Shown here: positions 35,101 through 61,175 of the stretch, one piece after another
How positions within the stretch are numbered: position 1 is the stretch's first letter
Layout: every line of letters begins with the position of its first letter
Source of the DNA: Mayamaea pseudoterrestris
Lineage: Eukaryota; Bacillariophyta; Bacillariophyceae; Sellaphorales; Sellaphoraceae
Reading direction: 5' to 3'
NCBI GenBank assembly: GCA_027923505.1
Contig: BROI01000003.1
Location: 1-64,000, forward strand
Length of the DNA: 64,000 nucleotides
The notes under the pieces: model-generated
Told to the model about the DNA's origin: nothing
Database searches by the model: none
What the model saw: only the letters and a program-made list of their open reading frames with translations
Program-made: the position numbers and the translations under genes

Positions 35101-38100
35101 AGTATAACGTAGCCGAAAGATGATTGCACGCTCGCCCATCCCTCAGTGTGGATTTCGGTCAAAGACGCTGGGTCCTTTTTCACGTGACGGACGAGGACCC
35201 TTCGAGACAAGACACCATATGCATCATTCACCTTGTCTTTTAAAACAGTAACAACGCTCCCTTTCGGTAGACATGCGATTGGCTTCGAATCTATAGACTC
35301 GTTCTCTCTCAGTTGACATCCCATGTGACCAACAACTCGAAAAGAACGATAAACTAAACGCTTTGATCCTTGGCTTTCTGACGACTCCGATGTAGCTCGA
35401 AGCTGTGTCACTCTAGAACGCTGAACGTGTCCAAGATAGCCCAAAGGACCGTTATTTTCACCATCAGCATCGTCACAACGACAAATAATGCAAAGATCTG
35501 CTTCATTTTCCGTAACGTCGGCCTCGGCGACGTTCAATGAAGGTGCAATCGTTGCCGCAAAAGCAGCCTGTTGCTTCTTCATCTTCGCCATTACCCGTTG
35601 TTGCGCTGTTATTCTAGCTTCCTTTGCCTTCGTGCTAGCCGCATCAGATGGGCTCATGGCCAGCTCTCTCTTCTTCGGCCAAAGATCGGGTAGTTCTGAA
35701 AACATTCCGTTGATTGTTGATCGTACTTCACCATCAATGGTCCACGAAGAAACACTGCTTTCGCTTGCAAAAGGACGAGCAGATTGAAAGCCAGCTTGGG
35801 ATCGAAAAGGGATACCTGTCGTCGCACTCTTTACTGCTAAATTTACACTTGGAGCACCGTTAACAAGAGAGTGGACAAAGCGGAGGAGCCACTTGAGACC
35901 GCTTGATGACAACGATCGAGCACCACCATGGTCGTCGGCGTCAGTTTTTGCAAAATCGCCATCATCCGAGTCAAGCACAGCAGCATGATCTGTCCTATGC
36001 TCATACAATGCAACAAGTAGTCCCAGAATCGATCCGCGCTTTTCTCCACTTCCACTAGAAGATAAGGGTCCTTCGGGGTAAGGTTTCAATGCCCATACAT
36101 CCTTTAAGCTATCGGGCACCTGTACAAGGCGATTCAAATATGAGTTGATGGACAGGCTAGCAGATAACATTTTCGATTCTTCGTCCAAATCAGGGAGCAA
36201 CATATGAAGTGAAGCGCATTCTTCAAGAGTATGGATTTGTAAAGTTAATAGCTGAAGTATCTCTAAGAACGAGACTGACGAGGAAGCCACTGTTTCCGCC
36301 GTAAATGGAGCCGTATCGGCGCTACTTCGTCTTCCGAGTGAGCTTGAAGAAGGACTTTGCAAGACACGTCGGGCAATCGACGTTGAAGGAATTTCTTCAG
36401 AAATCTGTGTGCCGTGGGTACTTGACGTCTCGACAATGACAGGAATGACCGGCTCGTCGGCTACTTCATCAAATGGGACCGGTTCGTGTGGCGGAAGCCA
36501 CGATCCCCCGGTCAAAGCGAAGAGTAGGAATCGCCGGAGCGCAGCGTCTATGGATGTCAAATGAAGAACCAATCTGCAAGGCAGAAACCTTGGGTGCGCT
36601 TTTGGGGGTGGACATACCAGAGGTAGGCAAGTAGCGTCAACAAAGTCCTTGTCGACGCCGACTTTCTGCTTTCGCAGCCTTGCGACAATATCCATTGCAT
36701 GCTGGTGCTCGTTCCGATGTAAGTGGAAGAAAGTAGGGTCATATTCGTCACAGACGTCTGGTTTCAGTTCATAAGAAGGAGGACCAGAGGCCGCTCGAGA
36801 TGAACTTGGTGTTTTTTGTTTAGCAATTTCGCGCAGCACTTCAGAAAATACATCGCGGACTCTACTGACACTTCCCTCGCTTTCCTCTCGTCGGGATATA
36901 CTGGCAGACGCCGCAGATAAAGCTTCGCTGTGGGAGCGGGGTTCCGCAGCAAGCGCATGGAGAAGTTCTCGGCGGATAGTCTGCTTAAGAGGTACATCAT
37001 CGTCAACCGACGCTGGAGGCGGTGGCGGCAATTCTGACACAACAACACAAACAGTGGCAAAGAATGATTCAGATAGCACTAAGGCCTGCTCTGGGTCACC
37101 GAGACGGGGCGGCTGAACCCATACATAACCATTTGGCATAGATACACCACTTGTTGATAAGGTTTGTATCCGTCGCTCGGGGTCACACAAAAATCCATCC
37201 ATGTTAAAGCGACTGAGCATGAGTGCAAAAGTTCGCCGTGCACCGAGGCCGCAACTCATCCCAGCTGCCGACAATTGCACAAGCAACATGTCAAGGTCAC
37301 GGAAGGAGCGACATAGTGGAGTGCTTGTGTAATTCATTGCCATGCCCGCGACAGAGCTACCATTTCTTGCCCAAAGATGTCTCTCAATTTGTTGCGCTGC
37401 TGCGATGCACCGAAGCGGATGATCTGCCAACGAGTGGATAATCTTCGTGACGGCAATGTTGGCGGAAACAGTCCTCGATCGAGACTTTCGGCGCTGCGCC
37501 TCTTGCGCTGAACATTCTGGGCCCGAGCTCCATGTAACTCTACAATTTTGGTAACGCATTATTTTACCAATGAGAGGAACAAGCGGATGCTGCTGTGAGG
37601 TTGATGAGTCTGCTAAATTTTCGGCATCTAGTACAGGAATCTTCCACCAAGATCCTGACGAGGTTGTTCGCGTAGAGGTAGGGATTGCCAGTCCCAAAGC
37701 GCTTTTTATGCATTTAGCAAGCGCACGATGCAGTGGCAGATGAAATGACAGTGAATCACCACCAAGAGGAGAGTGGGGAACTCGAAGCCAGTCAATCATC
37801 GCAGGGACAGGCGACGCTACTTTTGATGCCCCCGGGCCTTTTGTAGACCGCATTACATGCTCACGCTCAGCAGCTTCAGCTCGAAGAGCATTTTCGATCA
37901 AGGTAAGCTGATTCTCTGTCATTTTTATCCCAGTGGCACAAGCTAATGCTACAGCGTTTGGGGTATTGTTTGAGGCCTGTGAAATGAATTGAGAACAAGT
38001 AACATGTAGGGTACTACGTTGCAAAGTTTCAGCCTGGACAATATCATGGCCACCGTGGGCAGGAGACAAGGGAAAACCAGATTCCAACACCCCCTCTTGA

Positions 38101-41100
38101 TATAACCACTGTTTGATTTCACGTATTATGGCTGCGATAAAATTACCCGTCGCTTCTCTGATAACTGGCAAGTATGTACCATCGTCTAGCGGATGACCAA
38201 GTAACGAAGCTGTTGACGTACTAATCGAGCTCTCAGCTATGGCGTCACGAGTCCCCGCAAAGTTTAAACTCAATCCAAAGGCTTCCAACCATCGACTTTG
38301 TTCATATTCGACGTGTCCACCAGATATCTTTCTTTTCTGAGGATCCATTCCCTGTGCAAGACGAAGCATTCGCACATAGACCGCAGCAAACGATAAGAAA
38401 TCATCTCTCGCAGACGTCGACAAAGGTCCATGGTAGACTGGAAACTTGTTTGGCAGCAGAAGTCGAATGGCTGTACCAGTTGTCTCAATAACATATTCCA
38501 GATCTCGCAGCAGGTGTGGAAGGCGCTTATGCCTTGTCGATCTCGAATCCAAGAACCCATCATCGGATGCAGCAGGAAGGAGTGTCAATAGGGGATGTTC
38601 ACCGGCGACGTATGTCAGTGAAGGAAAAAGTCGATCATTTCTCATGGCAAGACCATCATCTAAACTGTCGTCGTCGTTAGCACCAGATGTGTTTTTCATT
38701 ATCATGCTGACTTCTTTTGTAGCCCCGAGTAAATTGGTATGTATACATCTGGTTATAGTGTGCGCAATGGGTGACATGAAAACCCCTATCGAGGCGCCAG
38801 GAACATCCTCTTCTTGCAACTTGTCGGATAGCAGCAGCTTCTCCGCTGCTGGAAGGTAGCCGAGCGCCCGAACAAGACTAGCCGCAGTAAAAATTTGTAC
38901 CGTGAAATGTAACGGTGTATCAGATTCAGTTCCAACGCCTGCGCAAAATAAAGTGCTAAGCGGCCGATAGGCGACACCAATTGCGCCAGCAAATCGACAG
39001 CGAAATCGAGAATCTGTCAGTAGAGATAGTAAAAGTGCATGTAAAGTTGCGCGCGCAGCTTTAGTTGGATAAGGATCAGTTAGTAGAAGCATGAGGATAG
39101 GTGACATAGGGACTCGGAATGAAGAATTTGCCAGCAAATGGCGCAGGTCCATGGGGCTGGGAAGCGGCGGTCTAACCTCGTCTAATTCATGAACTTTGCT
39201 TGTTCCAATTCCACTAACCATGTGCAACCCAGGAAGTCTATGAGGGAAAACGCTGCTCGTCAGTTGATCAGCCTCTGCCTGCTTGCGAAAGTCCGTATCA
39301 ATTACGTAGATTGTTTCTGACAATTCATTCTTGACAAAAGAGTCCATCATTCCTGTCTCCAGTCGTTGCAACAACGGGTGCTTTAATTCTGGAGACGCTG
39401 TGGCCGTATATGACGACGGAACAGTACCCCAGAGTGCGTGCGGTGATTTCTTGTATCTGTCTGACGGCAGTCGCCACCCAACATTAGAATAAAAACAATT
39501 TGGAGCTCTGGTTAATAGCACAAATTGCTCTGGTTGCGTCGACATGGCAATACCATGCAGTAACTCAGACTCTTCTCGCGTTACGTAGCTCGACAGCAAA
39601 TGCGGCGGAAATGCATCAAATCTTTTGCTGAGTATCTCCTCCTCGCTCAGGATATTTTCCACACCAGCCCACAATGGCATCATGCGCGCCTGTCTCCAAA
39701 CATGCACCCCCGCTAAATCATGCTCGGGATCGACTTGCACCAGCGCATGGACCGTCAACGCTGCCGCTGCCGGATGCGCAGCTGCCACTTCCTGCAGCCA
39801 AACGGTCAGATTCTTTGCTCGCATTTCCAGTTGCACCTGCGATACCGAAACGACAGCACCGTGCAGCCCCCGACTCTTTAACCGTCGGAACCCTTGCATG
39901 GCGGCTGGTATTCTCGAGTATGTCTTGACTGTCACTTGGCCATCCGAGTCAACATGCTGCGTCATGTCCTGTGCGCGTTCCCTCGCAGTGACGAGCGACT
40001 GCTCCCCAACACTACCAGCACCCACAGTGCGGCGACCAGGACGTGTCTCATGGAGCGCCGCGATAACTTCCTCATAAGTATGCACATCATCATTGTGGAG
40101 TCGCAGCTGCAAGTGATACCCTTCGGGCAGAGGCAGCACTGTGGTATTTTCGGATTCCTGGAGGTAATGAACAGGTGTCACAACGGATCGAGATGCATCA
40201 AATCCACCATCTGCAAAGGCTTGTCCATTGGCGATTCTCGCCGCCTCCTCGGCCCACTTGAGTCGCCACTGCGTCGCGTCCGCACCAACGGCAGCGCCAT
40301 CAAACGACTCGACAATGGCATGAACGGCCGCGCCAATCACAACTCCCAACGCCGCCAGTACCATTGGCTCGAGTCCACATTTTGAAACGGCTAATTCACC
40401 TTGTTTGTATCCTTTGGCGCACATGGCAACTGCTTCCATTGGATCATTCTGACTCGCTTCCGTCGCTTCATCGTTTCCTTCCTCTGGTCTATGCAAATCG
40501 CAGCACCCACTCTTGGCCCATGCTTCCACATCCCCACAGTCGCAGCATCCACCCGGCGTGGTGCGATGAAAGTAAACCTCATGGCCATTGTGATTCGACT
40601 CTCGAAAGCAAGCGTCGCAAATGACGCAGGTTGGATCCGTTTGGCAGGTGCGACAGTTCCAAGCAATGTCGCCGCGCTGAAAAACGTAGCCACATGGATT
40701 GCGAGTCTTCAAGTTAATCTTTGTAGCGTCCGCTTGTAACAGTGTCACGGTGGATGACTTTTTCTTGGAGCCGCCGCTTCGTTTCAACGTTGCTGCATCG
40801 CCCATCAACGTTGCATCATTTCCACTGCCACTATACTGCGCTATCATGGCATCCGCCCATTCCTTGGCGTAGCTTGGATGACATCCGGCGAGGCGCGAAA
40901 AGACACTCTCCGCCAAGACGGACAGCGACGGAAGGACGCGCAAGTTATTGTCAGCATTGTATTTCCAAAGCTTGACATCGGCCTCGTAGGCTTGCTTGAG
41001 CACCGCAACATTCACTTGATGCAAGCTGTAGGGCGCCGCGTCGGGCTTGACAATGCATCCGCCGGGTATAAATTGATGTGACACCAGCATGGGATAGAGG

Positions 41101-41171
41101 GGCCGACTCGTGCTCGTTGTCGTTGGTGGTGGCTGCTGCAGCCGCGAGTGGCTGGTGGATGGAGAACTCAT
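32148..41171 (-). CDS. UBR1/2-type N-degron E3 ubiquitin ligase
   Basis: A 3007-codon single exon. The UBR box (about 160-228) has the zinc-binding pattern NCRTCQTDPTCVICDACF...HEVYFHRTTPGGCCDCGD, which binds type-1 (basic) N-termini. At about 350 a ClpS-like N-domain begins (LQLRLHNDDVHTYEEVI), the type-2 (bulky hydrophobic) site. The RING starts at about 1894 (CIICRCDD), resumes at about 2047 (CGHAAHLTC) and ends at about 2088 (CPLC). The C-terminal UBR autoinhibitory domain ends with GACTLHARKHGSGIGLFFLV and DPGLRRGRPLFLN. The protein should ubiquitinate substrates with destabilising N-termini. It is larger than human UBR1 (about 1750), mostly from inserted linkers. TYW1 is convergent, 27 bp away. 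Confidence 0.95.
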   Translation of the reverse strand: MSSPSTSHSRLQQPPPTTTSTSRPLYPMLVSHQFIPGGCIVKPDAAPYSLHQVNVAVLKQAYEADVKLWKYNADNNLRVLPSLSVLAESVFSRLAGCHPSYAKEWADAMIAQYSGSGNDATLMGDAATLKRSGGSKKKSSTVTLLQADATKINLKTRNPCGYVFQRGDIAWNCRTCQTDPTCVICDACFRESNHNGHEVYFHRTTPGGCCDCGDVEAWAKSGCCDLHRPEEGNDEATEASQNDPMEAVAMCAKGYKQGELAVSKCGLEPMVLAALGVVIGAAVHAIVESFDGAAVGADATQWRLKWAEEAARIANGQAFADGGFDASRSVVTPVHYLQESENTTVLPLPEGYHLQLRLHNDDVHTYEEVIAALHETRPGRRTVGAGSVGEQSLVTARERAQDMTQHVDSDGQVTVKTYSRIPAAMQGFRRLKSRGLHGAVVSVSQVQLEMRAKNLTVWLQEVAAAHPAAAALTVHALVQVDPEHDLAGVHVWRQARMMPLWAGVENILSEEEILSKRFDAFPPHLLSSYVTREESELLHGIAMSTQPEQFVLLTRAPNCFYSNVGWRLPSDRYKKSPHALWGTVPSSYTATASPELKHPLLQRLETGMMDSFVKNELSETIYVIDTDFRKQAEADQLTSSVFPHRLPGLHMVSGIGTSKVHELDEVRPPLPSPMDLRHLLANSSFRVPMSPILMLLLTDPYPTKAARATLHALLLSLLTDSRFRCRFAGAIGVAYRPLSTLFCAGVGTESDTPLHFTVQIFTAASLVRALGYLPAAEKLLLSDKLQEEDVPGASIGVFMSPIAHTITRCIHTNLLGATKEVSMIMKNTSGANDDDSLDDGLAMRNDRLFPSLTYVAGEHPLLTLLPAASDDGFLDSRSTRHKRLPHLLRDLEYVIETTGTAIRLLLPNKFPVYHGPLSTSARDDFLSFAAVYVRMLRLAQGMDPQKRKISGGHVEYEQSRWLEAFGLSLNFAGTRDAIAESSISTSTASLLGHPLDDGTYLPVIREATGNFIAAIIREIKQWLYQEGVLESGFPLSPAHGGHDIVQAETLQRSTLHVTCSQFISQASNNTPNAVALACATGIKMTENQLTLIENALRAEAAEREHVMRSTKGPGASKVASPVPAMIDWLRVPHSPLGGDSLSFHLPLHRALAKCIKSALGLAIPTSTRTTSSGSWWKIPVLDAENLADSSTSQQHPLVPLIGKIMRYQNCRVTWSSGPECSAQEAQRRKSRSRTVSANIAVTKIIHSLADHPLRCIAAAQQIERHLWARNGSSVAGMAMNYTSTPLCRSFRDLDMLLVQLSAAGMSCGLGARRTFALMLSRFNMDGFLCDPERRIQTLSTSGVSMPNGYVWVQPPRLGDPEQALVLSESFFATVCVVVSELPPPPPASVDDDVPLKQTIRRELLHALAAEPRSHSEALSAASASISRREESEGSVSRVRDVFSEVLREIAKQKTPSSSRAASGPPSYELKPDVCDEYDPTFFHLHRNEHQHAMDIVARLRKQKVGVDKDFVDATCLPLVCPPPKAHPRFLPCRLVLHLTSIDAALRRFLLFALTGGSWLPPHEPVPFDEVADEPVIPVIVETSSTHGTQISEEIPSTSIARRVLQSPSSSSLGRRSSADTAPFTAETVASSSVSFLEILQLLTLQIHTLEECASLHMLLPDLDEESKMLSASLSINSYLNRLVQVPDSLKDVWALKPYPEGPLSSSGSGEKRGSILGLLVALYEHRTDHAAVLDSDDGDFAKTDADDHGGARSLSSSGLKWLLRFVHSLVNGAPSVNLAVKSATTGIPFRSQAGFQSARPFASESSVSSWTIDGEVRSTINGMFSELPDLWPKKRELAMSPSDAASTKAKEARITAQQRVMAKMKKQQAAFAATIAPSLNVAEADVTENEADLCIICRCDDADGENNGPLGYLGHVQRSRVTQLRATSESSESQGSKRLVYRSFRVVGHMGCQLRENESIDSKPIACLPKGSVVTVLKDKVNDAYGVLSRRVLVRHVKKDPASLTEIHTEGWASVQSSFGYVILSPLASICYMNTTWGSTRPIVKQCGHAAHLTCVETHMLSLHQRSAADQPYDGRFAANIREGEFLCPLCKQLSNVLIPRDNFDAVGDVTVSKPDIECSSLPQARPIRALLTGKRMSELTSDNFQGLTRDALSKFGIHLYNAMSAVSDNGRNKRNKQQQHWNKAIRKWDYEEETLEDHEADEETNECNIGGILRLLRQQLIAWSAFGYGASAAESATRSVEEKLPFGVVSLTNEPWPGFNAESKDSHPMLLEAMRTLTAASRHLDVLCLEMKETFVHATHSDDRVWVIGALLADIIDGRSWFSSNGVENCSSGGNATSALWSELTAQVASMPCHVARDGALLQRCEARATASEMWTVKGIGTESNRKDEPPTPLAVNQLLMLGLPHVQRDWGSTNPYVSQVRDDFAAPFRPGIAAAFLYKPLLIWDLHSLAGAIFSSVLANNLYDLPSSGDLCNIAQILLLARLIQAISTPFDICLSLEAEDDEESCWSVTEQMSEGTALTTLVTYCRSMITKKSLQPLDEMLIDGSIEASPTQLLSTVGDAILPFARSLVLMLRATSAVIRQRGLKDAKRSTVVSPDDDRLLSCILDNEFMSQEDGFYLLKILGGPYPSALINSQGPWKSLIDDWLMSAVGFELHHGSMGKSCLLVGNTMKHTSRLQHTRKYDSSEDDMEGSTSQIEMEVDEDTDRMNESTGSAYLNRHHMLMDDDVDESDEELSEVDGPEEVVDLGGQMVGGPIFQASSNNVSSLDSVGSEDFSSSGSEGEVDTDREFAHVSRAPILPYQPSTYAIEGIGPGRQGTLLECESANAVMADLSHLGLIHRRFTPTFSFIRLPTSFVELYNMVSKVKGRDDAPIDIHDEVSNSETAMCLLTGSVMRSGASRRQGVRSHRTPGACTLHARKHGSGIGLFFLVQKCTVLLIHNNKSAYCPSIYVDEHGEEDPGLRRGRPLFLNATRLQALEKMWRQHGIPREVAQIRSTSDRVIRDNWY

Positions 41172-43612: not shown

Positions 43613-44980
43613 TCACTTCAATTCCTCGCTTGCGGCAGTAATGTCCGATAAAAGACTTTCGACTGCCCGGCCAACCGCCTGCAGATTCTTGTCAAATGCC
43701 TCTAGCTGCTTCATGGGGACTATGCTTTGCTCCTGTAAATAAGCTTTACAAAGGTAGCGAGTCTGAGCTATCGCGAGCTTGCAGTCTACCCGCTTGTCAA
43801 CAAATTCCTTGTAGAAATTCGATACAGGTTTGTTGCCTTCCAACTCCAAGCGCAAGCTGCGAAAGCATGGGCGGTTGACAATCATCTCCTCGCGCAAAAG
43901 ATCCATATTTACCTCATTCAACAAGGCAAGCAGGTGAGCAAAGGGACCGTTCAAGCGTTCATGAATCATGTTATAAAAAACTTGGCATGTTAGTAAATCG
44001 TCGCATAACTTGTCCAAGCGTTCGAGCCGCTGGAGGGTGACTTCTGCAGCACGCAACCAAATCTTTATCAAGCGGACTCTCGAGTTAATCAGGTCTTGTA
44101 GACTTGCTTGACATGGAATATGTAGCGACAATCGACCCGATGCTTTAAGAGTCAAAGCTGGTGATCCAGTGTCCCCATTCGTAGGGGCTGGTGCCTCAAT
44201 CGATGATGCATCTATGACACTGCCGTTGCCAAATTTGTTCAAATCCTTGTTCTGCGCGGCAACATCAGCATCGCCTTGCACTCCGGTATTGGCCAGAAAA
44301 GTGCTTGTAGCTTCTCCTCCCTCAGCCGTCGCCGCTCCATCCAGAGTTGGAGCCATCTTGTCCGGCCCGTCCCCGATCGCTCTGGATTCTTTGGTACTGT
44401 ATAGATCTAATACAAATGTAGTATCATTGCAAGTAACGTCCGATCCACCACTCTTTGACGCAACAGAACCACTCTCGGAGGTTGAAGAACTTGGAGGTGG
44501 TGATTTAAACAAATCGTCAAGAGTGTTTTCCGTCATGCTCAGCGACGCAGCACCTTCATACACCACAATTCGTTTTTCCAACGTGTTTTCGTCATGTTCA
44601 GCAGCAATCGCATTGTCTACACATGTCTCTTGCGCAATGACAACGTTCAAATTGGCTCGACAAACCTTGAGCGGACACTGGTTTTCCTCCAAAACCCCAA
44701 AATCATCGTCACAGCGTCTGCAAATGCCATGTTTACTTGCAGCAATGCAGCGAGCCACGAGCATGTTGGCATCGACCTTGTTACCACAATTGGCGCATTC
44801 AAACGTCGACAAATTTCCATGCTTGGCTGCCGTTTCGCCGTTGCTGCTTTGATGACGCTTCGGTGCTGGCTGCTGCTCGTCCATTGATGATGCTGCAGGT
44901 CGCTTTGGACCGTGTTCGCCCGTTGCTTCGCCACCCTTTGGAACAAGGATTGCCGGCTTTGGCGAATTCTGCGACGACAT
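43613..44980 (-). CDS. RING-like zinc-finger protein, paralogue of the gene at 49965
   Basis: One exon, 455 residues from the ATG at 44980 (the open frame extends to 45046 without ATG). The N-terminus is polar with a Lys/Arg patch. A Cys/His module near residues 60-110 reads FECANCGNKVD...KHGICRRCDDDFG...QCPLKVC. The spacing recalls a SIAH-type RING, but the last pair is C-x4-C. The middle is acidic and Ser-rich. The last 140 residues are helical with several Cys (LCDDLLTCQVFYNMIHERLN). The gene at 49965 shares the order and the Cys spacing, so the two are probably old duplicates. E3 ligase function is only a possibility. Confidence 0.65.
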   Translation of the reverse strand: MSSQNSPKPAILVPKGGEATGEHGPKRPAASSMDEQQPAPKRHQSSNGETAAKHGNLSTFECANCGNKVDANMLVARCIAASKHGICRRCDDDFGVLEENQCPLKVCRANLNVVIAQETCVDNAIAAEHDENTLEKRIVVYEGAASLSMTENTLDDLFKSPPPSSSTSESGSVASKSGGSDVTCNDTTFVLDLYSTKESRAIGDGPDKMAPTLDGAATAEGGEATSTFLANTGVQGDADVAAQNKDLNKFGNGSVIDASSIEAPAPTNGDTGSPALTLKASGRLSLHIPCQASLQDLINSRVRLIKIWLRAAEVTLQRLERLDKLCDDLLTCQVFYNMIHERLNGPFAHLLALLNEVNMDLLREEMIVNRPCFRSLRLELEGNKPVSNFYKEFVDKRVDCKLAIAQTRYLCKAYLQEQSIVPMKQLEAFDKNLQAVGRAVESLLSDITAASEELK

Positions 44981-45626
44981 GTTTGATATCAGGAATATCT
45001 GAATGAGGTTTTCGGCGAGGATGGTGAAAATGGAAAGTAGTTTCACAGGCGGCGTTAAACGACTATGAATATCAAGAGTGACTATAAAGAGAAAGTGAAA
45101 GTGAAAGACGACAAGTGTGTCAGAAAGGAGCTGTCATTTGAGGTTTTGATACAATCCTGGCGATCATTCCGGTGGTGTCACAATTTTTCTTCCTCCTCAC
45201 ACTCTTACGCTTGACGAATCTCGATACGCAGAAGTATGCAAGGATTGCAATGGCGAAAAATGGCTGTTGTGAGACGAAAGTCTTGTGGCTGCAGCTGGTG
45301 CTCTGCGGTTGTTCTTTCCCATCGAACAGGCGAGCAGATCTTGCGCATGTTGTTCTCACTCGGCGAAAGTGAGCACGTGTCGCATCGTTATTGCAGAGCG
45401 GATCAATCATGGATGATGCCGCGTTTTGCTATGCAGTTTGAAGATTACGCAAGAAGCTGTCTCGTAAACATGTGCACAAAGACGACTAACATTGTGGTCC
45501 TGGCAGCATGTAATATAAACAGATAAAAATGAATTTAGTTATATGAAACATTTGTTAACTGACCTTGTCCACGTACTCGCGCGTAATTACCCGCGGACAG
45601 CTTGCACACATACACGACGCGCCCCC
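44981..45626. other. Intergenic with one weak minus-strand ORF
   Basis: A minus-strand frame at 45120-45410 (96 codons) contains a possible membrane segment (FFAIAILAYFCVSRFV) with basic flanks, but nothing else supports it. Otherwise I see no gene. Confidence 0.3.
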
Positions 45627-48109: not shown

Positions 48110-49891
48110 TCATCGCAATGAGGACCCTATCCGTAGTTTGCCACCCTTATTACAGTCATAGCAGACAAATCTTTCGCTCTTCGCAGGTTGTTTGCACGGT
48201 CCATATAAGCAGCTCCAGTGATACGCCTTGGCGCAACTTTCGCAAAGAAACAAATGAGCTTTCGTGCTACAATGGCATATGGTGCACTCGCTCTGACACT
48301 TTCCCTTAAGAACCTTGTAAATGTTGGGATTATTGCTCTTCCAGCGGTAGTACTGGACGAGCATGACCTGCATCGGACGGTCCATCATTGCCGCAATCGA
48401 CTGAAAATTCTTGTTCGAATTCTGGCCGTCTTCATTTAAAATGAGCAAATTAAACGTTTCCGCTTCTGTCCCGGTCATGCTAATATTCGCACATTTGGAA
48501 GATGCAATCATCAAATGCAGTCGCTCTTGAGCGGCCGGAACGCTGTAGTTAGAAAGGTGAAGCGCTTCCATTTTCAAAGTTCGACGTTCAAGCGACCCTA
48601 GGGGATGCAAAAACTCCTCGATAGGTTCACCTCGCGCTTCTGCCTCGTCCGCCATGACAGGATTCCAAATACAAGAACAATCGTGATCGGACGGCTCACG
48701 CTTAAAGTTACTATCGACAAGATCGATCTGGAAGTGGGGACCAATCATAATCTTATCGAGCACCCGATGGTCTGTATCTGTCACGAAAGTATTCGGCGTC
48801 TCTCCCCAGGCGGCTGACATGCTCCTTGTTGTGCGACGACAAGAACGCGCACAGTCAGACTTTGCACTGGATGCGACATTCTGTTTTTGTTTCAGGCAGT
48901 GCCTTCGACTACTTCTGACCGACCTAGATGGCGGACTTGTCAATGTGTCTGTGCTGCGCGCAGCAGGTGCAGGCGCTTGTTGTGTGTCTTGGTGAAAATC
49001 AGCAACTTGATCCCTTTCAGACTGAGCAGATGTATTTATGTGCTTTATCGATACACGTGCTGAAGTCGTTGGTACAGGATGATTCCTGCGCACCATCTCA
49101 CGTGCTCCGATAGAAGTTGAATCAATCATTGCCGCGTCGAGCTCCCCGTCGAGTTTTGCTTCAGACACTTGATCTATCCCAAACTCAGTGTATGTGGCAG
49201 CATGCACTGTACCTATTGTCGCTTGTTCATCTGGTACCTCGTGACTTCCGAGCAAGTCCGAATGTGGCTGGACGAGATTTGGATCAGTCGTTGCCGCGTC
49301 GAGAAGTTCTTCAAGTTTTGCTTCATTCCGCTGCTCAGTCTCAAATTGAATGCATGAGGCAGCATGCTTATTAGGTACTGTCGCTTGTTGATCTGGTCCC
49401 TCGTGACTTCTGAGCAGTTCCAAATGTGAATTGAAGATAGTTGGTTCAGTCGTTGCCGCGTCAAACACTGCCTCCTTAATTTCTGCTTCACTGTCAATGG
49501 CTATGTCACGAATTTCCGCCGGTACAGTGTCAAGGGTACACGCCATTTCATCCGCCGAGGCTTTTATTCGTTCGCCCTCTGTCAAAATAGCAAGGATATA
49601 TTCACCTTCCTCATTCGTCAGCACCTTCATGTCCGCACAAAACTGCGTACTCTCGTTCGGGTCTACCACCATAAGGTCGCTATGCAAATCTTTTTCCTCA
49701 GCCGTCGCAACACGGCTAAGTTCTGCCTCATCGCTTTGGATGGGACGGTGGGAGGCATCGCACGGTGGGCCCGGCATTTCTGATTCACGAATTTTAAACC
49801 CTTCGCCAACTTCGACAGTTTCTGGGTCGCGGCCTCCAAGCTCAATGCTGTTATCGCGAACCTGTTCACCCGACACTGGAATAACGTCCAT
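48110..49891 (-). CDS. ELM2-SANT-PHD chromatin protein with three N-terminal repeats
   Basis: One exon, 593 residues. Residues about 144-300 form three tandem units of about 53 residues, starting FDAATTEP, LDAATTDP and LDAAMIDS; the first two are close and the third diverged. After a basic Ser/Arg stretch, an ELM2 domain begins at about 379 (IMIGPHFQIDLVDSNF) and runs through HLSNYSVPAAQERLHL. A SANT-like segment follows (about 470-525: TEAETFNLLILN, then MVLVQ-type YYRWKSN). A C4HC3 PHD finger ends the protein (about 535-580: CTICHCSTKAHLFLCESCAK...YHWSC). ELM2-SANT modules recruit class I histone deacetylases in MTA, MIER and CoREST-type co-repressors, so a nuclear co-repressor role is inferred. 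Confidence 0.8.
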   Translation of the reverse strand: MDVIPVSGEQVRDNSIELGGRDPETVEVGEGFKIRESEMPGPPCDASHRPIQSDEAELSRVATAEEKDLHSDLMVVDPNESTQFCADMKVLTNEEGEYILAILTEGERIKASADEMACTLDTVPAEIRDIAIDSEAEIKEAVFDAATTEPTIFNSHLELLRSHEGPDQQATVPNKHAASCIQFETEQRNEAKLEELLDAATTDPNLVQPHSDLLGSHEVPDEQATIGTVHAATYTEFGIDQVSEAKLDGELDAAMIDSTSIGAREMVRRNHPVPTTSARVSIKHINTSAQSERDQVADFHQDTQQAPAPAARSTDTLTSPPSRSVRSSRRHCLKQKQNVASSAKSDCARSCRRTTRSMSAAWGETPNTFVTDTDHRVLDKIMIGPHFQIDLVDSNFKREPSDHDCSCIWNPVMADEAEARGEPIEEFLHPLGSLERRTLKMEALHLSNYSVPAAQERLHLMIASSKCANISMTGTEAETFNLLILNEDGQNSNKNFQSIAAMMDRPMQVMLVQYYRWKSNNPNIYKVLKGKCQSECTICHCSTKAHLFLCESCAKAYHWSCLYGPCKQPAKSERFVCYDCNKGGKLRIGSSLR

Positions 49892-49964: not shown

Positions 49965-51350
49965 TCACTTACTCTCTTCAATGCCACATAGCAAGTTACG
50001 GTTAGCTTTAATGAAAAATTCATTGCACGACGTACGACGAGTTAGGTCATGATATACCTCACCAGAGTCGGCAATGTATAGGACACAAGCACCAGACGCT
50101 GACTCATCAACGTTTGCATGATGATGCTTTGTCCGCTGCCGCTTGCTCGCTGTGCGTGTTTGCAAGCTTAATCGTCTCTTGTGCTCCTTCTCCTCTAAGT
50201 CGAGTTCGCTTTTCGTAACCAAGTATCTACGACTCTCGATAATATCTTTAACAAGACTGTCAAGCTCGGCTCGGAGCTCCGCAAGAATCTTATTAATCTC
50301 TCCCAGATCTGCAATCGTGAAATTGAACTGCTCCAAAACGTAGAAATAACAAAGAAAGTGGATCCTAGTCTCAGTCAATTTACTCTCGATAATGTCTCGG
50401 TTCGCCTGGTGAAGAAACTCTGGTACGCCTTTTCCAATTGTGGATAGCATGGAGTGCTCCGATGCAAGGAGTGCCTCACGGAACATCGGCCGTTCATTGA
50501 CTGGCACATGCTCTTTCGCCAGAACGAGAAATTGCATCCAGTGATTGTACAAGCGAGTTCGAAAGTCACTTGTATACAAGTTACTTTTGATTGGATCGAG
50601 GTTTTCGCAACGATCGCGCAGTGCTCCAAGGCTTTGTAGTACGGCCGCCACATTTTGCGAGTTATTAGCAAGCAAGTGGAACTTATAACCGCATGTATCA
50701 TCGCCTGCTGTAGGCATTTGAAACACAGCAAAAGCACTCTCGTCCGCGTACAGGATAGGTTGGTCATTCACCGTCGAAGAACTGCTCGACGAGGAAGCAA
50801 AAGCAATGTTCTCGCTCACACTCGCCAATTTTTCCGCGTGCTTTGCGTCATGGTCGACATGTTCCATGGCTCGCAATTCGCCATTATCATTCGAAAGTTC
50901 CGAGTCGCTTGCCGGTGAATTCGACGACTCCTCAGACAAGACTGGTGGATCCTTGGCAGACGGCGCTGCATCGCCGACCACTCCATCATCGTTGTCGTCT
51001 TTTGTATCATTTGCCGCCTCTTTTGCAGACTCAAATGAAGCTTGGCATGTCTTGAGTCGGCATTTGCCCCTCACCAATATATCCAAGCGCTCGTCGCAGT
51101 CTCGACATACGTTGTGTCCTCGCGCGCAGCGAATCACAATGACTTTTTTGCTCACCTTTTGTAGGCAAATGGCGCAGCCAAGCTCAGTCATATCATCATG
51201 CTTTCGAGTCGCACTTACGCCATCCGGAGTCTTAGCTGCATTAATTTCGATTATGCGCTCCTTGTTTGGTAGAGCATAGCTAGATTCATGATTGTTCTCC
51301 TTTTCTGCCAACCCAAGTTGCGCCTCGTCATCCTTGTCACTGTCGCTCAT
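49965..51350 (-). CDS. RING-like zinc-finger protein, paralogue of the gene at 43613
   Basis: One exon, 461 residues from the ATG at 51350 (the open frame to 51365 lacks an earlier ATG). The N-terminus is acidic. The Cys/His module (about 60-110) reads GCAICLQKVS, RCARGHNVCRDCDERL, then GKCRLKTC. This is a better SIAH-type RING start (C-x2-C, C, G-H-x2-C-x2-C) than its paralogue, again ending C-x4-C. A long acidic/Ser-rich linker leads to a helical C-terminal part and a basic tail (KEHKRRLSLQTRTASKRQRT) that may be a nuclear signal. Only 73 bp separate its stop from the next gene's ATG on the same strand. Confidence 0.65.
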   Translation of the reverse strand: MSDSDKDDEAQLGLAEKENNHESSYALPNKERIIEINAAKTPDGVSATRKHDDMTELGCAICLQKVSKKVIVIRCARGHNVCRDCDERLDILVRGKCRLKTCQASFESAKEAANDTKDDNDDGVVGDAAPSAKDPPVLSEESSNSPASDSELSNDNGELRAMEHVDHDAKHAEKLASVSENIAFASSSSSSSTVNDQPILYADESAFAVFQMPTAGDDTCGYKFHLLANNSQNVAAVLQSLGALRDRCENLDPIKSNLYTSDFRTRLYNHWMQFLVLAKEHVPVNERPMFREALLASEHSMLSTIGKGVPEFLHQANRDIIESKLTETRIHFLCYFYVLEQFNFTIADLGEINKILAELRAELDSLVKDIIESRRYLVTKSELDLEEKEHKRRLSLQTRTASKRQRTKHHHANVDESASGACVLYIADSGEVYHDLTRRTSCNEFFIKANRNLLCGIEESK

Positions 51351-51981
51351 GATGTCTACAAGCAATGAGTTCGATAATCAGCGTAGACGATAGCGATGAA
51401 AGGGAAAGAAGCAAGTCAAGAGCTTGTCGTGCGGAAAGATTTGTTTACGCAGGCGGTGCGACGAAATGCCAAAGATTCAAAGCTTGTTTTGGGGTTTGGT
51501 GCACACCTCTCACCTCTACCGGCCAAATCGGACAATGAGCAAGAGTCTTGGAGCTTGCGCGCGCGATACAAAAGACAATCAAGGCAATGAGCGAAAGATG
51601 ATTGTTGCCATGGAGAAAAAGGCTCGAATATCTCGTGTCGTTCTTCCGGCGATGCTCGTTCTTTCGTCGCGTGACGCAGTGTCGCACCACAACTGAAAAA
51701 CTAGCTAGCGTATGCAAGCCAAGGCGGATATTTACCAAAAAGAGATGCGTTGCTGCAACAAGGTCAAACTCTCGAATCATCATGATACGGCTGCCGCCGG
51801 ATGGTTACAAACCTCGAGCGAACGGAAGTAGCGTCGCTTAGCTTGCGCGGCCGACACTTTAATGTCATCTCGCGAGCAAATACTGTACCTTGCGAGATAA
51901 TCGTAATCGTTATCGTATACATTACCTACAACATATTCATCCCCTCCTCAACAAAGCAATACACGCACACAAACTCTTCAG
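51351..51981. other. Intergenic, no supported gene
   Basis: Promoter side of the RING-like gene and 3' flank of SmD3. Several short frames overlap one another on both strands without motifs. Confidence 0.4.
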
Positions 51982-54265: not shown

Positions 54266-54443
54266 GTGCCATTTCAAGACTAAATGAGCTGCTTTTATTC
54301 AGTATACAAGTATATCTGACTCATCCAATTGATCGATTTCGTTCATGTAATTACAATGTAAAGGTTCATGGTTTCATCAATAGAAAACCATCCATGCATG
54401 AAATGAGGACTACTGCTGCCAGATCCACATGCTTTCAAGTCGT

Positions 54444-55544
54444 CTACGCCCACAGCTCCTTCAATGGCTTGAGAGCAGGGTCGGCGCCAAGCTCCATCTT
54501 GGTCATCATATCCCGATCCAGCAAGTATTCCTCAAAGGTTTGCGCCTTGTGGCCGCAAATGTTTTCAATGTCATGTGAAACAAACGCCGACGTTTCCTCC
54601 ATGCCCGTCGACTTGACCTTTTCCAATGCCGCCAAGTCTTGCACGACCCAATGAGGATCGCCGCTCAGCATAATCTCCGTGGTAAACTCGTTGAGTGGCT
54701 GGTCAACGTACGTAATGGGCTTGTTCAAATGCTTGCTCAGCAGGTCGGCAACCTCTTGATCCGTGATTGGTCCCGGACCAGTGAGCTTGTACGTGTGATT
54801 GTAGTGCGGTCGAGGCTCCAACAGCACGCGGACGGCCACTTCGGCAATGTCATTGGGCGAAACGTAATTCACTCCCTTGTTGCCCGACGCACCGTAAAAC
54901 TTGGCCGGCGTTTTGTCTTCACGAATCTCATGGTTTTGAAACTGGAAAACGTTGGACATGAAGTGCGTGGCCTTTAGAATGGTGTAACCAAAGTTCATGC
55001 GAGGCGCCTCCATCATGACGCCCGCGTCGGCAAACGGCGAAAAGTCCAGCTGAGGTGTCGCACAACTGGTGGCGAGCAAGTCGTCCATTTCCGCGTGCAT
55101 CTTGACCAGCGGAACCTCGTAAAACGCTTCATGCGGATTGTAAAACGAAAGTTTGACAAAATGCTTGACTCCGGCCGTTTCGCAGGCGTCCAAAAAGACG
55201 GGAAAGTGCTTCTGCCAGTCCTTGGTGTACGCTACCGTGCAAAGAACCGACTTGACATCCTTCAAAGCGTTCGCATAGGTATCCTCGCGGTCCCAGCTAA
55301 AGACGGCAATCTCCGCTCCCTTGAGTCCCATATCTTCCAGCAGCTCCAACTTGCTCGTGCCTAGACGAACCTGCGGGTAACCCGCGTTCAGTAGCTTTAG
55401 TGCCACGCGATGACCAATAATGCCAGTGCCGCCCGTCACAAAGATGCGACCCGATTCGGGGTCCAAATTGTGAATGCCAAGCATTTCGCCAACGTGGGCG
55501 AGACCGGTCAAGCTCTTGGTGACTGTATCGGTAATCTTGTCCAT
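54444..55544 (-). CDS. NmrA-like NAD(P)-binding reductase, native copy
   Basis: One exon, 366 residues. A Rossmann start (RIFVTGGTGIIGHRVALKLL) with TGxxGxxG, then HFVKLSFYNP and a late helix with DIAEVAVRVLLEPR, typical of atypical short-chain dehydrogenases of the NmrA/isoflavone-reductase type. The substrate cannot be named. The native C-terminus ends ELGADPALKPLKELWA. All but its last 35 bp lies inside the 2982-bp duplicated unit. It is divergent from the UBA-thioredoxin-PUB gene with 327 bp between start codons, so the two may share a promoter. Confidence 0.85.
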   Translation of the reverse strand: MDKITDTVTKSLTGLAHVGEMLGIHNLDPESGRIFVTGGTGIIGHRVALKLLNAGYPQVRLGTSKLELLEDMGLKGAEIAVFSWDREDTYANALKDVKSVLCTVAYTKDWQKHFPVFLDACETAGVKHFVKLSFYNPHEAFYEVPLVKMHAEMDDLLATSCATPQLDFSPFADAGVMMEAPRMNFGYTILKATHFMSNVFQFQNHEIREDKTPAKFYGASGNKGVNYVSPNDIAEVAVRVLLEPRPHYNHTYKLTGPGPITDQEVADLLSKHLNKPITYVDQPLNEFTTEIMLSGDPHWVVQDLAALEKVKSTGMEETSAFVSHDIENICGHKAQTFEEYLLDRDMMTKMELGADPALKPLKELWA

Positions 55545-57460
55545 GGTCGTTCAGTTGCTTGGGATTGTTGTTGATGCTGTTGTGTTGCTGTTGCAATCTT
55601 GCTATCGCTTATCCGTTGTTGTGAGCGAGGCAAGCTGCTGGAGCTTTTGCGAACCGCTGGGTTCGGTTGGTTGTCTCATTTAGCCTTTCCGTGGAAGCTT
55701 GGCGGTTCGCATATGCAATGCATGTGCAATGCGATGCAACGCTTCGTATTGTGGCGATCGAGTACCGATAAGACTCTTTCCAATACCGGAGCGACCTATC
55801 TAGCGCGCGCTGGACGACAACCATCACACATCACATTCGCTTGCCGACAAGCCTCTTGCTTCCATCTCGTCATGGGACGCCCAAGTAGCATGCACTTGGC
55901 ACTCTTATCGCTGGTAGTGCTGCATTGGTCTCTGCTTGCCGAAGGCAAACGAGCCGTGATGCCATGGGGCTGGTCGTCAAGCTTGTCAAGGATTGCCAGC
56001 AGCAGCAAACGCACCGCTGCATCATTCATTCTGCAACGTGGAGGTTACCAGGACCAGGAGCATTCATCATCCATCACTGAGCCAGATCAGGAGGAGAGCC
56101 TTGACGATAAAGTTCGTCGGGCCATGGAAAAGCTTGGTCTCACGCCTCCGGCCGCAGAAGAAGAAACGATCGACGCATCATCTGCAACTACAGCAGAAAC
56201 CACATGCGAGGGAGGCGTCTGCGAAATGCCAACACAGCCTACTACAGAGCAGCAGCAGCAGCAAGACCCCGAAGCATTAGCCGATGTCATTTCATCCAGC
56301 ATGAGCATTGACCGATCACTCGCCATGGCTGCCATTGTTGCAACCGCCACCATGCAGGGCGACAAACATTTGTTCAACGAGGTGGCGGCTCGGCAAATGA
56401 TACTGCAGGAGCTTCAAGTCGTGAGTTCCGTTCCAAAGGATTCCGAGCAAGTGCAGCAACTGGTGCAGCAGGAGGGAATTTCAGTGTTCGAGGCGCGGCG
56501 AGCGCTGGCGTTTGCGGATGGAAACATGGACAATGCGCGCGCCATACTATTGGCTGAGAAGGAAGATTTGAAGCTAAATGAGAAGGAGGAGGCAGACACA
56601 GACACTGAAGTGAAAGAAAATAAAGCTGCACCAGAGGCACCAATCAACTTTCCAACTGTTGAAGTCAAGTCAAACTTTGACCCCACCAAAATGGCACAGC
56701 CAGAAGCGCCTCAGGAGAGTGCAGCACCTCCACAACCAGCCGACAAGTCCAAGGTTGTGTTCGAGGCAACCTCCAAGGACATTCAGAAACTAGTCCTTGA
56801 ATCGCCCGTTCCAGTGCTGCTGGACGTTTATGCGGATTGGTGCGGCCCCTGCAAGGTGTTGGGTCCAGCACTGGAAGAAATGGCCGTCAAGAGCGGTGGA
56901 GCCTTTCGACTGGTCAAGGTCAACTCCGACAATGAACGGCCAGTCTCGGGTGCACTCGACGTGACGGCACTGCCAACCGTCTTTGGCGTCAAGAATGGAA
57001 GAATCGTCAACATGTTTCAGGGAATGCCAAAGTCACAGGAAGCCATGCAGAGTTTCATGATGGGTTTGATGGTGAACGAATCGCACTTTAGTCCGCCACT
57101 AACCGAGGAGCAAAAGCAACAATACGCCGATCTTACCTCAAAGCTGGTCAAAATGGCTGGATCGGCCTGCTTTTCATTCTCGGCGCGCGAAGGACTTCAG
57201 GATCGCGTCACGGCGCAACTGGACAAGCTCGCCGAGCAGACTGGAGACTTTTCTATTGCGGAGGAGTCGGCCCAAGTGTTAAAGTCGCTTCTGTTAAACG
57301 TCATTCGCGATCCGTATGCACCAAAGTTTCGAGTTGTCAAGCTTGACAATAAGGTCATTGCCGCGAAGATTAAGCAGTACCCAGCATGCTTGGCGTTTTT
57401 GAAGAATGTTGGATTTTCCGCAACGTCAGAATCGGAACTTGTTCTGCACAAGAACAAGCC
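54479..57460. repeat. Tandem duplication, unit 1 (2982 bp)
   Basis: First of two head-to-tail copies. It spans the reductase gene minus its 3' end, the shared promoter and the first roughly 530 codons of the UBA-thioredoxin-PUB gene. Every frame I compared on both strands translates identically in unit 2. Confidence 0.97.
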
Positions 57461-57560
57461 GGTCGGCGCCAAGCTCCATCTTGGTCATCATATCCCGATC
57501 CAGCAAGTATTCCTCAAAGGTTTGCGCCTTGTGGCCGCAAATGTTTTCAATGTCATGTGA
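55872..57560 (+). CDS. UBA-thioredoxin-PUB protein, 3'-truncated copy with chimeric end
   Basis: Identical to the intact copy at 58854 through the sequence HKNKPV, then runs across the duplication joint into antisense sequence of the reductase gene. It ends after 33 unrelated residues (from GAKLHLGHHIP to FNVM). It keeps the signal peptide, UBA and thioredoxin domains (active site WCGPC) and nearly all of the PUB domain, but lacks the UBX-like domain and acidic tail. The product would be 562 residues. It may be expressed from its own complete promoter or be removed as faulty. Confidence 0.8.
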   Translation: MGRPSSMHLALLSLVVLHWSLLAEGKRAVMPWGWSSSLSRIASSSKRTAASFILQRGGYQDQEHSSSITEPDQEESLDDKVRRAMEKLGLTPPAAEEETIDASSATTAETTCEGGVCEMPTQPTTEQQQQQDPEALADVISSSMSIDRSLAMAAIVATATMQGDKHLFNEVAARQMILQELQVVSSVPKDSEQVQQLVQQEGISVFEARRALAFADGNMDNARAILLAEKEDLKLNEKEEADTDTEVKENKAAPEAPINFPTVEVKSNFDPTKMAQPEAPQESAAPPQPADKSKVVFEATSKDIQKLVLESPVPVLLDVYADWCGPCKVLGPALEEMAVKSGGAFRLVKVNSDNERPVSGALDVTALPTVFGVKNGRIVNMFQGMPKSQEAMQSFMMGLMVNESHFSPPLTEEQKQQYADLTSKLVKMAGSACFSFSAREGLQDRVTAQLDKLAEQTGDFSIAEESAQVLKSLLLNVIRDPYAPKFRVVKLDNKVIAAKIKQYPACLAFLKNVGFSATSESELVLHKNKPVGAKLHLGHHIPIQQVFLKGLRLVAANVFNVM

Positions 57561-58526
57561 AACAAACGCCGACGTTTCCTCCATGCCCGTCGACTTGACC
57601 TTTTCCAATGCCGCCAAGTCTTGCACGACCCAATGAGGATCGCCGCTCAGCATAATCTCCGTGGTAAACTCGTTGAGTGGCTGGTCAACGTACGTAATGG
57701 GCTTGTTCAAATGCTTGCTCAGCAGGTCGGCAACCTCTTGATCCGTGATTGGTCCCGGACCAGTGAGCTTGTACGTGTGATTGTAGTGCGGTCGAGGCTC
57801 CAACAGCACGCGGACGGCCACTTCGGCAATGTCATTGGGCGAAACGTAATTCACTCCCTTGTTGCCCGACGCACCGTAAAACTTGGCCGGCGTTTTGTCT
57901 TCACGAATCTCATGGTTTTGAAACTGGAAAACGTTGGACATGAAGTGCGTGGCCTTTAGAATGGTGTAACCAAAGTTCATGCGAGGCGCCTCCATCATGA
58001 CGCCCGCGTCGGCAAACGGCGAAAAGTCCAGCTGAGGTGTCGCACAACTGGTGGCGAGCAAGTCGTCCATTTCCGCGTGCATCTTGACCAGCGGAACCTC
58101 GTAAAACGCTTCATGCGGATTGTAAAACGAAAGTTTGACAAAATGCTTGACTCCGGCCGTTTCGCAGGCGTCCAAAAAGACGGGAAAGTGCTTCTGCCAG
58201 TCCTTGGTGTACGCTACCGTGCAAAGAACCGACTTGACATCCTTCAAAGCGTTCGCATAGGTATCCTCGCGGTCCCAGCTAAAGACGGCAATCTCCGCTC
58301 CCTTGAGTCCCATATCTTCCAGCAGCTCCAACTTGCTCGTGCCTAGACGAACCTGCGGGTAACCCGCGTTCAGTAGCTTTAGTGCCACGCGATGACCAAT
58401 AATGCCAGTGCCGCCCGTCACAAAGATGCGACCCGATTCGGGGTCCAAATTGTGAATGCCAAGCATTTCGCCAACGTGGGCGAGACCGGTCAAGCTCTTG
58501 GTGACTGTATCGGTAATCTTGTCCAT
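57426..58526 (-). CDS. NmrA-like reductase, second copy with altered C-terminus
   Basis: Same as the copy at 54444 up to the sequence TKMELGAD, after which the last 11 native residues are replaced by 11 from the antisense of the truncated thioredoxin gene (RLVLVQNKFRF). The total length of 366 is unchanged by chance. The Rossmann fold is whole, so the enzyme could still work. Its 3' end overlaps that of the truncated thioredoxin gene by 135 bp on the opposite strand. Confidence 0.8.
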   Translation of the reverse strand: MDKITDTVTKSLTGLAHVGEMLGIHNLDPESGRIFVTGGTGIIGHRVALKLLNAGYPQVRLGTSKLELLEDMGLKGAEIAVFSWDREDTYANALKDVKSVLCTVAYTKDWQKHFPVFLDACETAGVKHFVKLSFYNPHEAFYEVPLVKMHAEMDDLLATSCATPQLDFSPFADAGVMMEAPRMNFGYTILKATHFMSNVFQFQNHEIREDKTPAKFYGASGNKGVNYVSPNDIAEVAVRVLLEPRPHYNHTYKLTGPGPITDQEVADLLSKHLNKPITYVDQPLNEFTTEIMLSGDPHWVVQDLAALEKVKSTGMEETSAFVSHDIENICGHKAQTFEEYLLDRDMMTKMELGADRLVLVQNKFRF

Positions 58527-60442
58527 GGTCGTTCAGTTGCTTGGGATTGTTGTTGATGCTGTTGTGTTGCTGTTGCAATCTTGCTATCGCTTATCCGTTG
58601 TTGTGAGCGAGGCAAGCTGCTGGAGCTTTTGCGAACCGCTGGGTTCGGTTGGTTGTCTCATTTAGCCTTTCCGTGGAAGCTTGGCGGTTCGCATATGCAA
58701 TGCATGTGCAATGCGATGCAACGCTTCGTATTGTGGCGATCGAGTACCGATAAGACTCTTTCCAATACCGGAGCGACCTATCTAGCGCGCGCTGGACGAC
58801 AACCATCACACATCACATTCGCTTGCCGACAAGCCTCTTGCTTCCATCTCGTCATGGGACGCCCAAGTAGCATGCACTTGGCACTCTTATCGCTGGTAGT
58901 GCTGCATTGGTCTCTGCTTGCCGAAGGCAAACGAGCCGTGATGCCATGGGGCTGGTCGTCAAGCTTGTCAAGGATTGCCAGCAGCAGCAAACGCACCGCT
59001 GCATCATTCATTCTGCAACGTGGAGGTTACCAGGACCAGGAGCATTCATCATCCATCACTGAGCCAGATCAGGAGGAGAGCCTTGACGATAAAGTTCGTC
59101 GGGCCATGGAAAAGCTTGGTCTCACGCCTCCGGCCGCAGAAGAAGAAACGATCGACGCATCATCTGCAACTACAGCAGAAACCACATGCGAGGGAGGCGT
59201 CTGCGAAATGCCAACACAGCCTACTACAGAGCAGCAGCAGCAGCAAGACCCCGAAGCATTAGCCGATGTCATTTCATCCAGCATGAGCATTGACCGATCA
59301 CTCGCCATGGCTGCCATTGTTGCAACCGCCACCATGCAGGGCGACAAACATTTGTTCAACGAGGTGGCGGCTCGGCAAATGATACTGCAGGAGCTTCAAG
59401 TCGTGAGTTCCGTTCCAAAGGATTCCGAGCAAGTGCAGCAACTGGTGCAGCAGGAGGGAATTTCAGTGTTCGAGGCGCGGCGAGCGCTGGCGTTTGCGGA
59501 TGGAAACATGGACAATGCGCGCGCCATACTATTGGCTGAGAAGGAAGATTTGAAGCTAAATGAGAAGGAGGAGGCAGACACAGACACTGAAGTGAAAGAA
59601 AATAAAGCTGCACCAGAGGCACCAATCAACTTTCCAACTGTTGAAGTCAAGTCAAACTTTGACCCCACCAAAATGGCACAGCCAGAAGCGCCTCAGGAGA
59701 GTGCAGCACCTCCACAACCAGCCGACAAGTCCAAGGTTGTGTTCGAGGCAACCTCCAAGGACATTCAGAAACTAGTCCTTGAATCGCCCGTTCCAGTGCT
59801 GCTGGACGTTTATGCGGATTGGTGCGGCCCCTGCAAGGTGTTGGGTCCAGCACTGGAAGAAATGGCCGTCAAGAGCGGTGGAGCCTTTCGACTGGTCAAG
59901 GTCAACTCCGACAATGAACGGCCAGTCTCGGGTGCACTCGACGTGACGGCACTGCCAACCGTCTTTGGCGTCAAGAATGGAAGAATCGTCAACATGTTTC
60001 AGGGAATGCCAAAGTCACAGGAAGCCATGCAGAGTTTCATGATGGGTTTGATGGTGAACGAATCGCACTTTAGTCCGCCACTAACCGAGGAGCAAAAGCA
60101 ACAATACGCCGATCTTACCTCAAAGCTGGTCAAAATGGCTGGATCGGCCTGCTTTTCATTCTCGGCGCGCGAAGGACTTCAGGATCGCGTCACGGCGCAA
60201 CTGGACAAGCTCGCCGAGCAGACTGGAGACTTTTCTATTGCGGAGGAGTCGGCCCAAGTGTTAAAGTCGCTTCTGTTAAACGTCATTCGCGATCCGTATG
60301 CACCAAAGTTTCGAGTTGTCAAGCTTGACAATAAGGTCATTGCCGCGAAGATTAAGCAGTACCCAGCATGCTTGGCGTTTTTGAAGAATGTTGGATTTTC
60401 CGCAACGTCAGAATCGGAACTTGTTCTGCACAAGAACAAGCC
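57461..60442. repeat. Tandem duplication, unit 2 (2982 bp)
   Basis: Second head-to-tail copy. The joint at 57460/57461 (...AAGCC|GGTCGGCG...) shows no microhomology beyond chance. Continuing past 60442, the thioredoxin gene reads on into its native 3' part. Confidence 0.97.
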
Positions 60443-61175
60443 TGTCATTAACGTTGCTCCACTCATTGTGGCGCGCGATACAATTGACAAGTGGCTGGAC
60501 GCTAGTCGGTACGAAGTTGCCAAGGCGGCGCGAAAAAGAAAAGATGAAATTGATCGTGTTCGTGTTCAAAAAGAATTGGAGACTGCGAGGGCTAACGAGC
60601 CCGAGGAGGAAGCATCAGGTGAAGTGTTGGTCGACCCAGATGCATGTACTATCAAGGCGCGGATAGAAGGGAAGAAGAAGATCCATGCGCTCGATTTACG
60701 AGCAGATGACTCGTTGACAAAGGTATTGTCCAAACTGCCAGTTTCGATTCCAGACGGCGAGGAAGTGAAAATAACTTGTGCAGCCAAACGATTAGTTGTC
60801 AGTGCGAGCGACGGAGCTACAATGAAGCAGTCACTTCGACAGCTCGGGCTGCATCCAGCAGCATCAATTGTTGTCGCCATTGGCTCGGAAAGGTCTGCGC
60901 CATCTACTAGTAAAAAGTCAACCAAGTCAAAAATCGCTGACCGAGCAGCGAAGAAGAAAAAGAAAGGAAGTCACACCATGCACTCTATTGGGGTATACGC
61001 AAAGGATGACAACGCCAAGGGTGAACTTATTGACGGTGGAGGCGGTGTGATGTATGAACATGACGTTTCGGACGACGAAGAGGAGAAAGTAAAGGACGTC
61101 AAGCCAGACATTGATAACGAAGAAAATTCCAGCGAAGGTGAAGGGGCGGCTGCTGGCGCAGTGGAAGAAGAGTAG
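58854..61175 (+). CDS. UBA-thioredoxin-PUB-UBX protein, intact; candidate periplastidal CDC48 cofactor
   Basis: One exon, 773 residues from the ATG at 58854 (the frame is open upstream, but this start gives a signal peptide, MHLALLSLVVLHWSLLAEG). Order: a UBA-like segment (about 205-240, ISVFEARRALAFADGNMDNA); thioredoxin (about 295-400, active site DWCGPCK); a PUB domain (about 450-530, LKSLLLNVIRDPYAPKFRVV); a coiled stretch; a UBX-like beta-grasp (about 605-680, ending LRQLGLHPAASIVVAIGSE); and a basic then acidic tail. PUB and UBX domains bind CDC48/p97. With a signal peptide and no Phe at the cleavage site, the protein could act in the periplastidal compartment with the SELMA import machinery. 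ER lumen is the alternative. Confidence 0.85.
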   Translation: MGRPSSMHLALLSLVVLHWSLLAEGKRAVMPWGWSSSLSRIASSSKRTAASFILQRGGYQDQEHSSSITEPDQEESLDDKVRRAMEKLGLTPPAAEEETIDASSATTAETTCEGGVCEMPTQPTTEQQQQQDPEALADVISSSMSIDRSLAMAAIVATATMQGDKHLFNEVAARQMILQELQVVSSVPKDSEQVQQLVQQEGISVFEARRALAFADGNMDNARAILLAEKEDLKLNEKEEADTDTEVKENKAAPEAPINFPTVEVKSNFDPTKMAQPEAPQESAAPPQPADKSKVVFEATSKDIQKLVLESPVPVLLDVYADWCGPCKVLGPALEEMAVKSGGAFRLVKVNSDNERPVSGALDVTALPTVFGVKNGRIVNMFQGMPKSQEAMQSFMMGLMVNESHFSPPLTEEQKQQYADLTSKLVKMAGSACFSFSAREGLQDRVTAQLDKLAEQTGDFSIAEESAQVLKSLLLNVIRDPYAPKFRVVKLDNKVIAAKIKQYPACLAFLKNVGFSATSESELVLHKNKPVINVAPLIVARDTIDKWLDASRYEVAKAARKRKDEIDRVRVQKELETARANEPEEEASGEVLVDPDACTIKARIEGKKKIHALDLRADDSLTKVLSKLPVSIPDGEEVKITCAAKRLVVSASDGATMKQSLRQLGLHPAASIVVAIGSERSAPSTSKKSTKSKIADRAAKKKKKGSHTMHSIGVYAKDDNAKGELIDGGGGVMYEHDVSDDEEEKVKDVKPDIDNEENSSEGEGAAAGAVEEE

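Follow-up and report, generated by a model that had tools for sequence, protein, structure and literature searches.

The window analysed here, a stretch of 64,000 bases, carries eukaryotic nuclear genes, among them those for an LSM protein and for ribosomal protein L9, the latter with a leader resembling what we take to be a plastid-targeting motif of algae with complex plastids. Judged by eye, gene content and leader sequences give the genome an alga-like character. One uninterrupted open reading frame (ORF) of 3,007 residues runs from 32148 to 41171 on the minus strand and by eye encodes a putative UBR-type E3 ubiquitin ligase. Two cysteine-rich ORFs, also on the minus strand (43613–45046 and 49965–51365), are alike in length and layout and by eye resemble diverged paralogues, with only weak RING-like Pfam matches that fall below the cut-offs. 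The ORF at 48110–49891 (minus strand) gives weak, likewise sub-threshold, matches to PHD and ELM2, and within it lies a tandem repeat with a period of 162 bp, 2.1 copies and 75% matching (49115–49462).

The locus under study lies further along the same stretch and comprises two divergently transcribed genes, one for an NmrA-like protein and one for a protein with a thioredoxin and a PUB domain (hereafter thioredoxin–PUB), around which a long direct repeat is laid out. Its features are as follows, with the strand given where one applies.

54430..54477: imperfect inverted repeat, 10 of 12 pairs Watson–Crick, or 11 plus 3 G–T of 14; separated by 1 nt from the unit's left edge, which it precedes
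54444..55544, minus strand: intact NmrA-like NAD(P)-binding protein, 1,101-nt ORF, 366 aa; Pfam NmrA, E 4.7e-19
54479..57460: first unit, 2,982 bp, no mismatch to the second
55545..55871: region between the divergent genes, first copy, 327 bp
55872..57560, plus strand: inner thioredoxin–PUB fusion, 562 aa, of which 531 residues are common with the intact protein and 31 form a foreign tail
57426..58526, minus strand: inner NmrA-like fusion, 355 of 366 residues common with the intact protein, the last 11 swapped for 11 foreign ones
57438..57458: perfect hairpin, 8-bp stem and 5-nt loop; lies upstream of the joint, 2 nt away; repeated at 60420–60440
57460..57461: blunt joint, 0 bp of microhomology, edge bases unlike on both sides
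57461..60442: second unit, 2,982 bp, head-to-tail after the first with a single joint
58527..58853: region between the divergent genes, second copy, 327 bp
58854..61175, plus strand: intact thioredoxin–PUB protein, 2,322-nt ORF, 773 aa; Pfam Thioredoxin, E 2.1e-17; PUB, E 1.2e-12

An earlier note, made from the letters alone, had described the two units as apparently identical, and base-by-base comparison at an offset of 2982 bears this out, with 2,982 of 2,982 positions matching. The exact run at this offset is 54479–57460, and identity breaks off sharply at both of its ends. A perfect match of this length cannot be a product of chance. Elsewhere in the 64,000 bases, there is no other exact direct repeat of at least 30 nt and no inverted 30-mer, and Tandem Repeats Finder, whose longest period of 500 is below the length of the unit, reported only small arrays at other places (5 rows). 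The window contains no N anywhere, hence there is no gap between the two units. The same note had seen no clear microhomology at the joint, and indeed the base preceding the unit is G whereas the final base of the unit is C, and the initial base of the unit is G whereas the base following the second copy is T.

What is repeated is less than the divergent gene pair named in that note. The divergent genes are present, but the final 35 nt of the NmrA-like ORF lie in the left flank and the final 733 nt of the thioredoxin–PUB ORF in the right flank, so that the unit consists of the intergenic region together with 3′-truncated copies of both genes, and there is one full copy of each gene, the inner copies being fusions. 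These inner copies abut at the joint, each finishing in a foreign tail, and their ORFs have a tail-to-tail overlap of 135 nt; the copies that reach over the outer edges are whole. Removing one unit leaves both genes whole, with the NmrA-like gene on the minus strand and the thioredoxin–PUB gene on the plus strand, which is the single-copy form of the locus. The 327-bp region, measured to a chosen ATG ahead of a signal-peptide-like leader, is the common upstream region of both genes and may serve as their promoter. That the inner genes are truncated fusions, and that both breakpoints stand beside short inverted repeats, goes beyond the earlier note.

The inner thioredoxin–PUB protein has lost 242 residues relative to the intact one, whose 773 residues are counted from a start codon picked by eye. 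The cut falls at the edge of the PUB domain; in the numbering of the long ORF, the Pfam match extends to residue 618 and the common part to residue 622, and in the inner copy the PUB match ends at residue 617. The intact protein begins with a leader that by eye is signal-peptide-like. A UBX domain, which seemed likely by eye in its C-terminal part, is not claimed; a Pfam search admitting E-values up to 10 detected none. For this part, the single-sequence AlphaFold model is of low quality (pLDDT, averaged by block, 34–53; fragment residues 141–230), although the order of its strands and helices is ubiquitin-like, suggesting a possible ubiquitin-like C-terminal part. The best PDB folds for this model are PUB domains of peptide:N-glycanase (E 6e-3 to 3e-2), with none at E ≤ 0.001 among the matches listed, the best 50 of 199; two UBXD1 chains in this set align over 94 columns, which we take to be the PUB part of UBXD1. 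By its domains and leader, the protein at 58854–61175 is a candidate periplastid Cdc48 cofactor. Its matches to phages amount to 47 records, every one below 60% identity, and the best 20 of the 47 fall in residues 382–542, in or around the thioredoxin domain.

For the NmrA-like protein, pattern searches gave 3 matches in a viral collection and 20 in a prokaryote-genome collection, none of which was confirmed as a relative, and a structure model with a mean pLDDT of 35.9 was unusable. Exact short patterns from the ends of the unit had no match, one end being compared with viral contigs and the other with genome contigs. A literature query on copy-number variation among tandemly duplicated genes of diatoms returned no match, which is uninformative on the literature at large, and the parts of the paper on the Phaeodactylum telomere-to-telomere assembly available to us (PMC9266582) hold nothing that decides between a real and a false duplication here.

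The inverted repeats at the breakpoints were set against the rest of the stretch. A scan for hairpins like that at 57438–57458 gave 10 matches at 8 separate places in the window, including both of its own copies. Judged by a Watson–Crick stem score, 0.9% of 2,500 random positions equal or surpass the left edge, and the same share the right edge. Among 57,436 position pairs at equal spacing, 5 do as well at each end within 2 nt; the observed pair accounts for 2 of these and a single other site for the remaining 3. Within 8 nt the number rises to 44, of which 8 come from the observed pair and adjacent positions. When G–T pairs are allowed, the product estimate for inverted repeats at both edges is 0.004. 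When folding energy is taken over the 50 nt preceding each edge, 1.8% of 4,000 random positions are as low as the right edge and 19% as low as the left; windows placed downstream of the edges or centred on them do not stand out (10–45%). Thus, the stem score is unusual at both edges and the folding energy at the right edge only, in a test devised after the joint had been seen, so that these figures are a hint only. Inverted repeats ending 1–2 nt before both breakpoints hint at a real DNA event, to which the folding energy adds weak support.

We lean, by little more than the toss of a coin, to reading the repeat as a false tandem ("homotype") duplication, in which a single-copy nuclear locus was written twice. 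Two assembled pieces with about 3 kb of common end sequence may have been set end to end with the overlap left unmerged, or a gap closer may have re-inserted sequence already present in the assembly. This reading agrees with copies of the same sequence, free of haplotype differences over 2,982 of 2,982 positions, and with a unit that is the sole exact repeat of its kind in the window and has abrupt ends; skipping one unit restores both genes. Both edges lie inside coding sequence and have no bases in common, as expected of an arbitrary contig end. However, the position of the edges 1–2 nt past inverted repeats counts against such an arbitrary end, and the usual gap is missing. A gap between false homotype copies, as described in PMC8081667 and PMC9516828, is a common but not an absolute feature. 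Moreover, the anatomy listed above, with an intact set outside and two fusions inside, is equally expected from a true tandem duplication. A real and very recent duplication, carried by the sequenced strain in fixed or heterozygous form and leaving one intact copy per gene plus two inner fusions, has to be weighed beside it, and we put its chance a little short of even. It could have arisen by a template switch, in which the nascent strand stalled immediately beyond the hairpin at 57438–57458, came off and resumed synthesis about 3 kb upstream, next to the second inverted repeat, or from a break that was blunt-joined. The joint without a gap speaks for it, as do inverted repeats that end 2 nt and 1 nt before its breakpoints with a stem score rare at both, although the hairpin test is post hoc and the left edge unremarkable in folding energy. 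The microhomology expected of a template-switch duplication amounts to 0 bp here. Blunt joints make up 35% of 644 fly CNV breakpoints, at which non-B DNA including inverted repeats is enriched, but just 11–19% in two human sets (PMC4056370), and these Drosophila and human sets are mostly not tandem duplications but deletions and small insertions. The absence of any difference in 2,982 bases demands extreme youth or conversion. With the mutation rates reported for Phaeodactylum (PMC6604790), and on the assumption that the rate of the source species is similar, zero differences limit the age of a real duplication without conversion to at most about 1.0 million generations (95% bound), and below this age zero differences are what one would expect. 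Real and false are nearly even, with a slight lean to the artefact.

The earlier note had offered a very recent duplication, an assembly error or ongoing gene conversion; the first stands, as does the second in its same-sequence form, while the data can be explained without ongoing conversion. An older real duplication, held identical by conversion or under dosage selection, we regard as the least probable reading of all. Very efficient conversion would also yield identity, non-coding sequence included; however, the inner genes, as 3′-truncated fusions, are poor targets for dosage selection, and the unit is without any sign of age. The note had further traced a possible assembly error to two haplotypes, that is, to a heterotype false duplication in which the two haplotypes of a diploid are placed in series. 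Although this is the main kind of false duplication according to PMC9516828, two haplotypes side by side should differ unless local heterozygosity is about 0.1% or less, so that zero differences speak against merged haplotypes. The chance of 0 differences in 2,982 bases is 0.05 at 0.1% heterozygosity, but 3e-7 at 0.5% and 1e-13 at 1%, and high heterozygosity is reported for Phaeodactylum (PMC10833087), insofar as that alga can serve as a guide. This part of the claim is thereby weakened, and we consider the heterotype reading very improbable.

If the false homotype duplication is the right reading, the annotation may list two fusion genes that do not exist and, with them, a seeming expansion of the NmrA-like and thioredoxin–PUB genes; false duplications of this sort inflate gene families. 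If the duplication is real, it is a gene-fusing tandem duplication caught before mutation blurred the copies, and would offer an algal case in which to test template switching linked to hairpins. Either way, the repeat would not represent a new class of phenomenon. A more specific version, which we hold to be a long shot, is that a real duplication at most about 1 million generations old arose by a hairpin-to-hairpin template switch and that its inner copy expresses the cut thioredoxin–PUB protein, possibly an interfering variant of a likely Cdc48 cofactor. It would be a newborn thioredoxin–PUB variant in an alga, cut at the PUB edge and without the C-terminal part. The inner fusion genes are not to be trusted until the joint is spanned by reads.

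Among known systems, the thioredoxin–PUB protein invites comparison with sPUB of the SELMA plastid-import machinery, which PMC6610115 lists for Phaeodactylum; in the parts of PMC3971594 and PMC5487736 available to us, sPUB or a PUB domain is not mentioned. The likeness consists in the PUB domain and the leader that by eye is signal-peptide-like, and it is a lead only. As to the repeat, nonrecurrent tandem duplications formed by end joining or template switching, as represented by the CNV breakpoints of PMC4056370, are alike in the blunt joint and in the inverted repeats at the breakpoints, whereas they are unlike the present copies, which are without a single base difference. The false homotype duplications at contig boundaries described in PMC8081667 and PMC9516828 have a gap between the copies, whereas the present repeat has none; they resemble it in being tandem copies of the same sequence over a few kb, and intact genes outside with broken ones inside, as found here, would follow from such an artefact.
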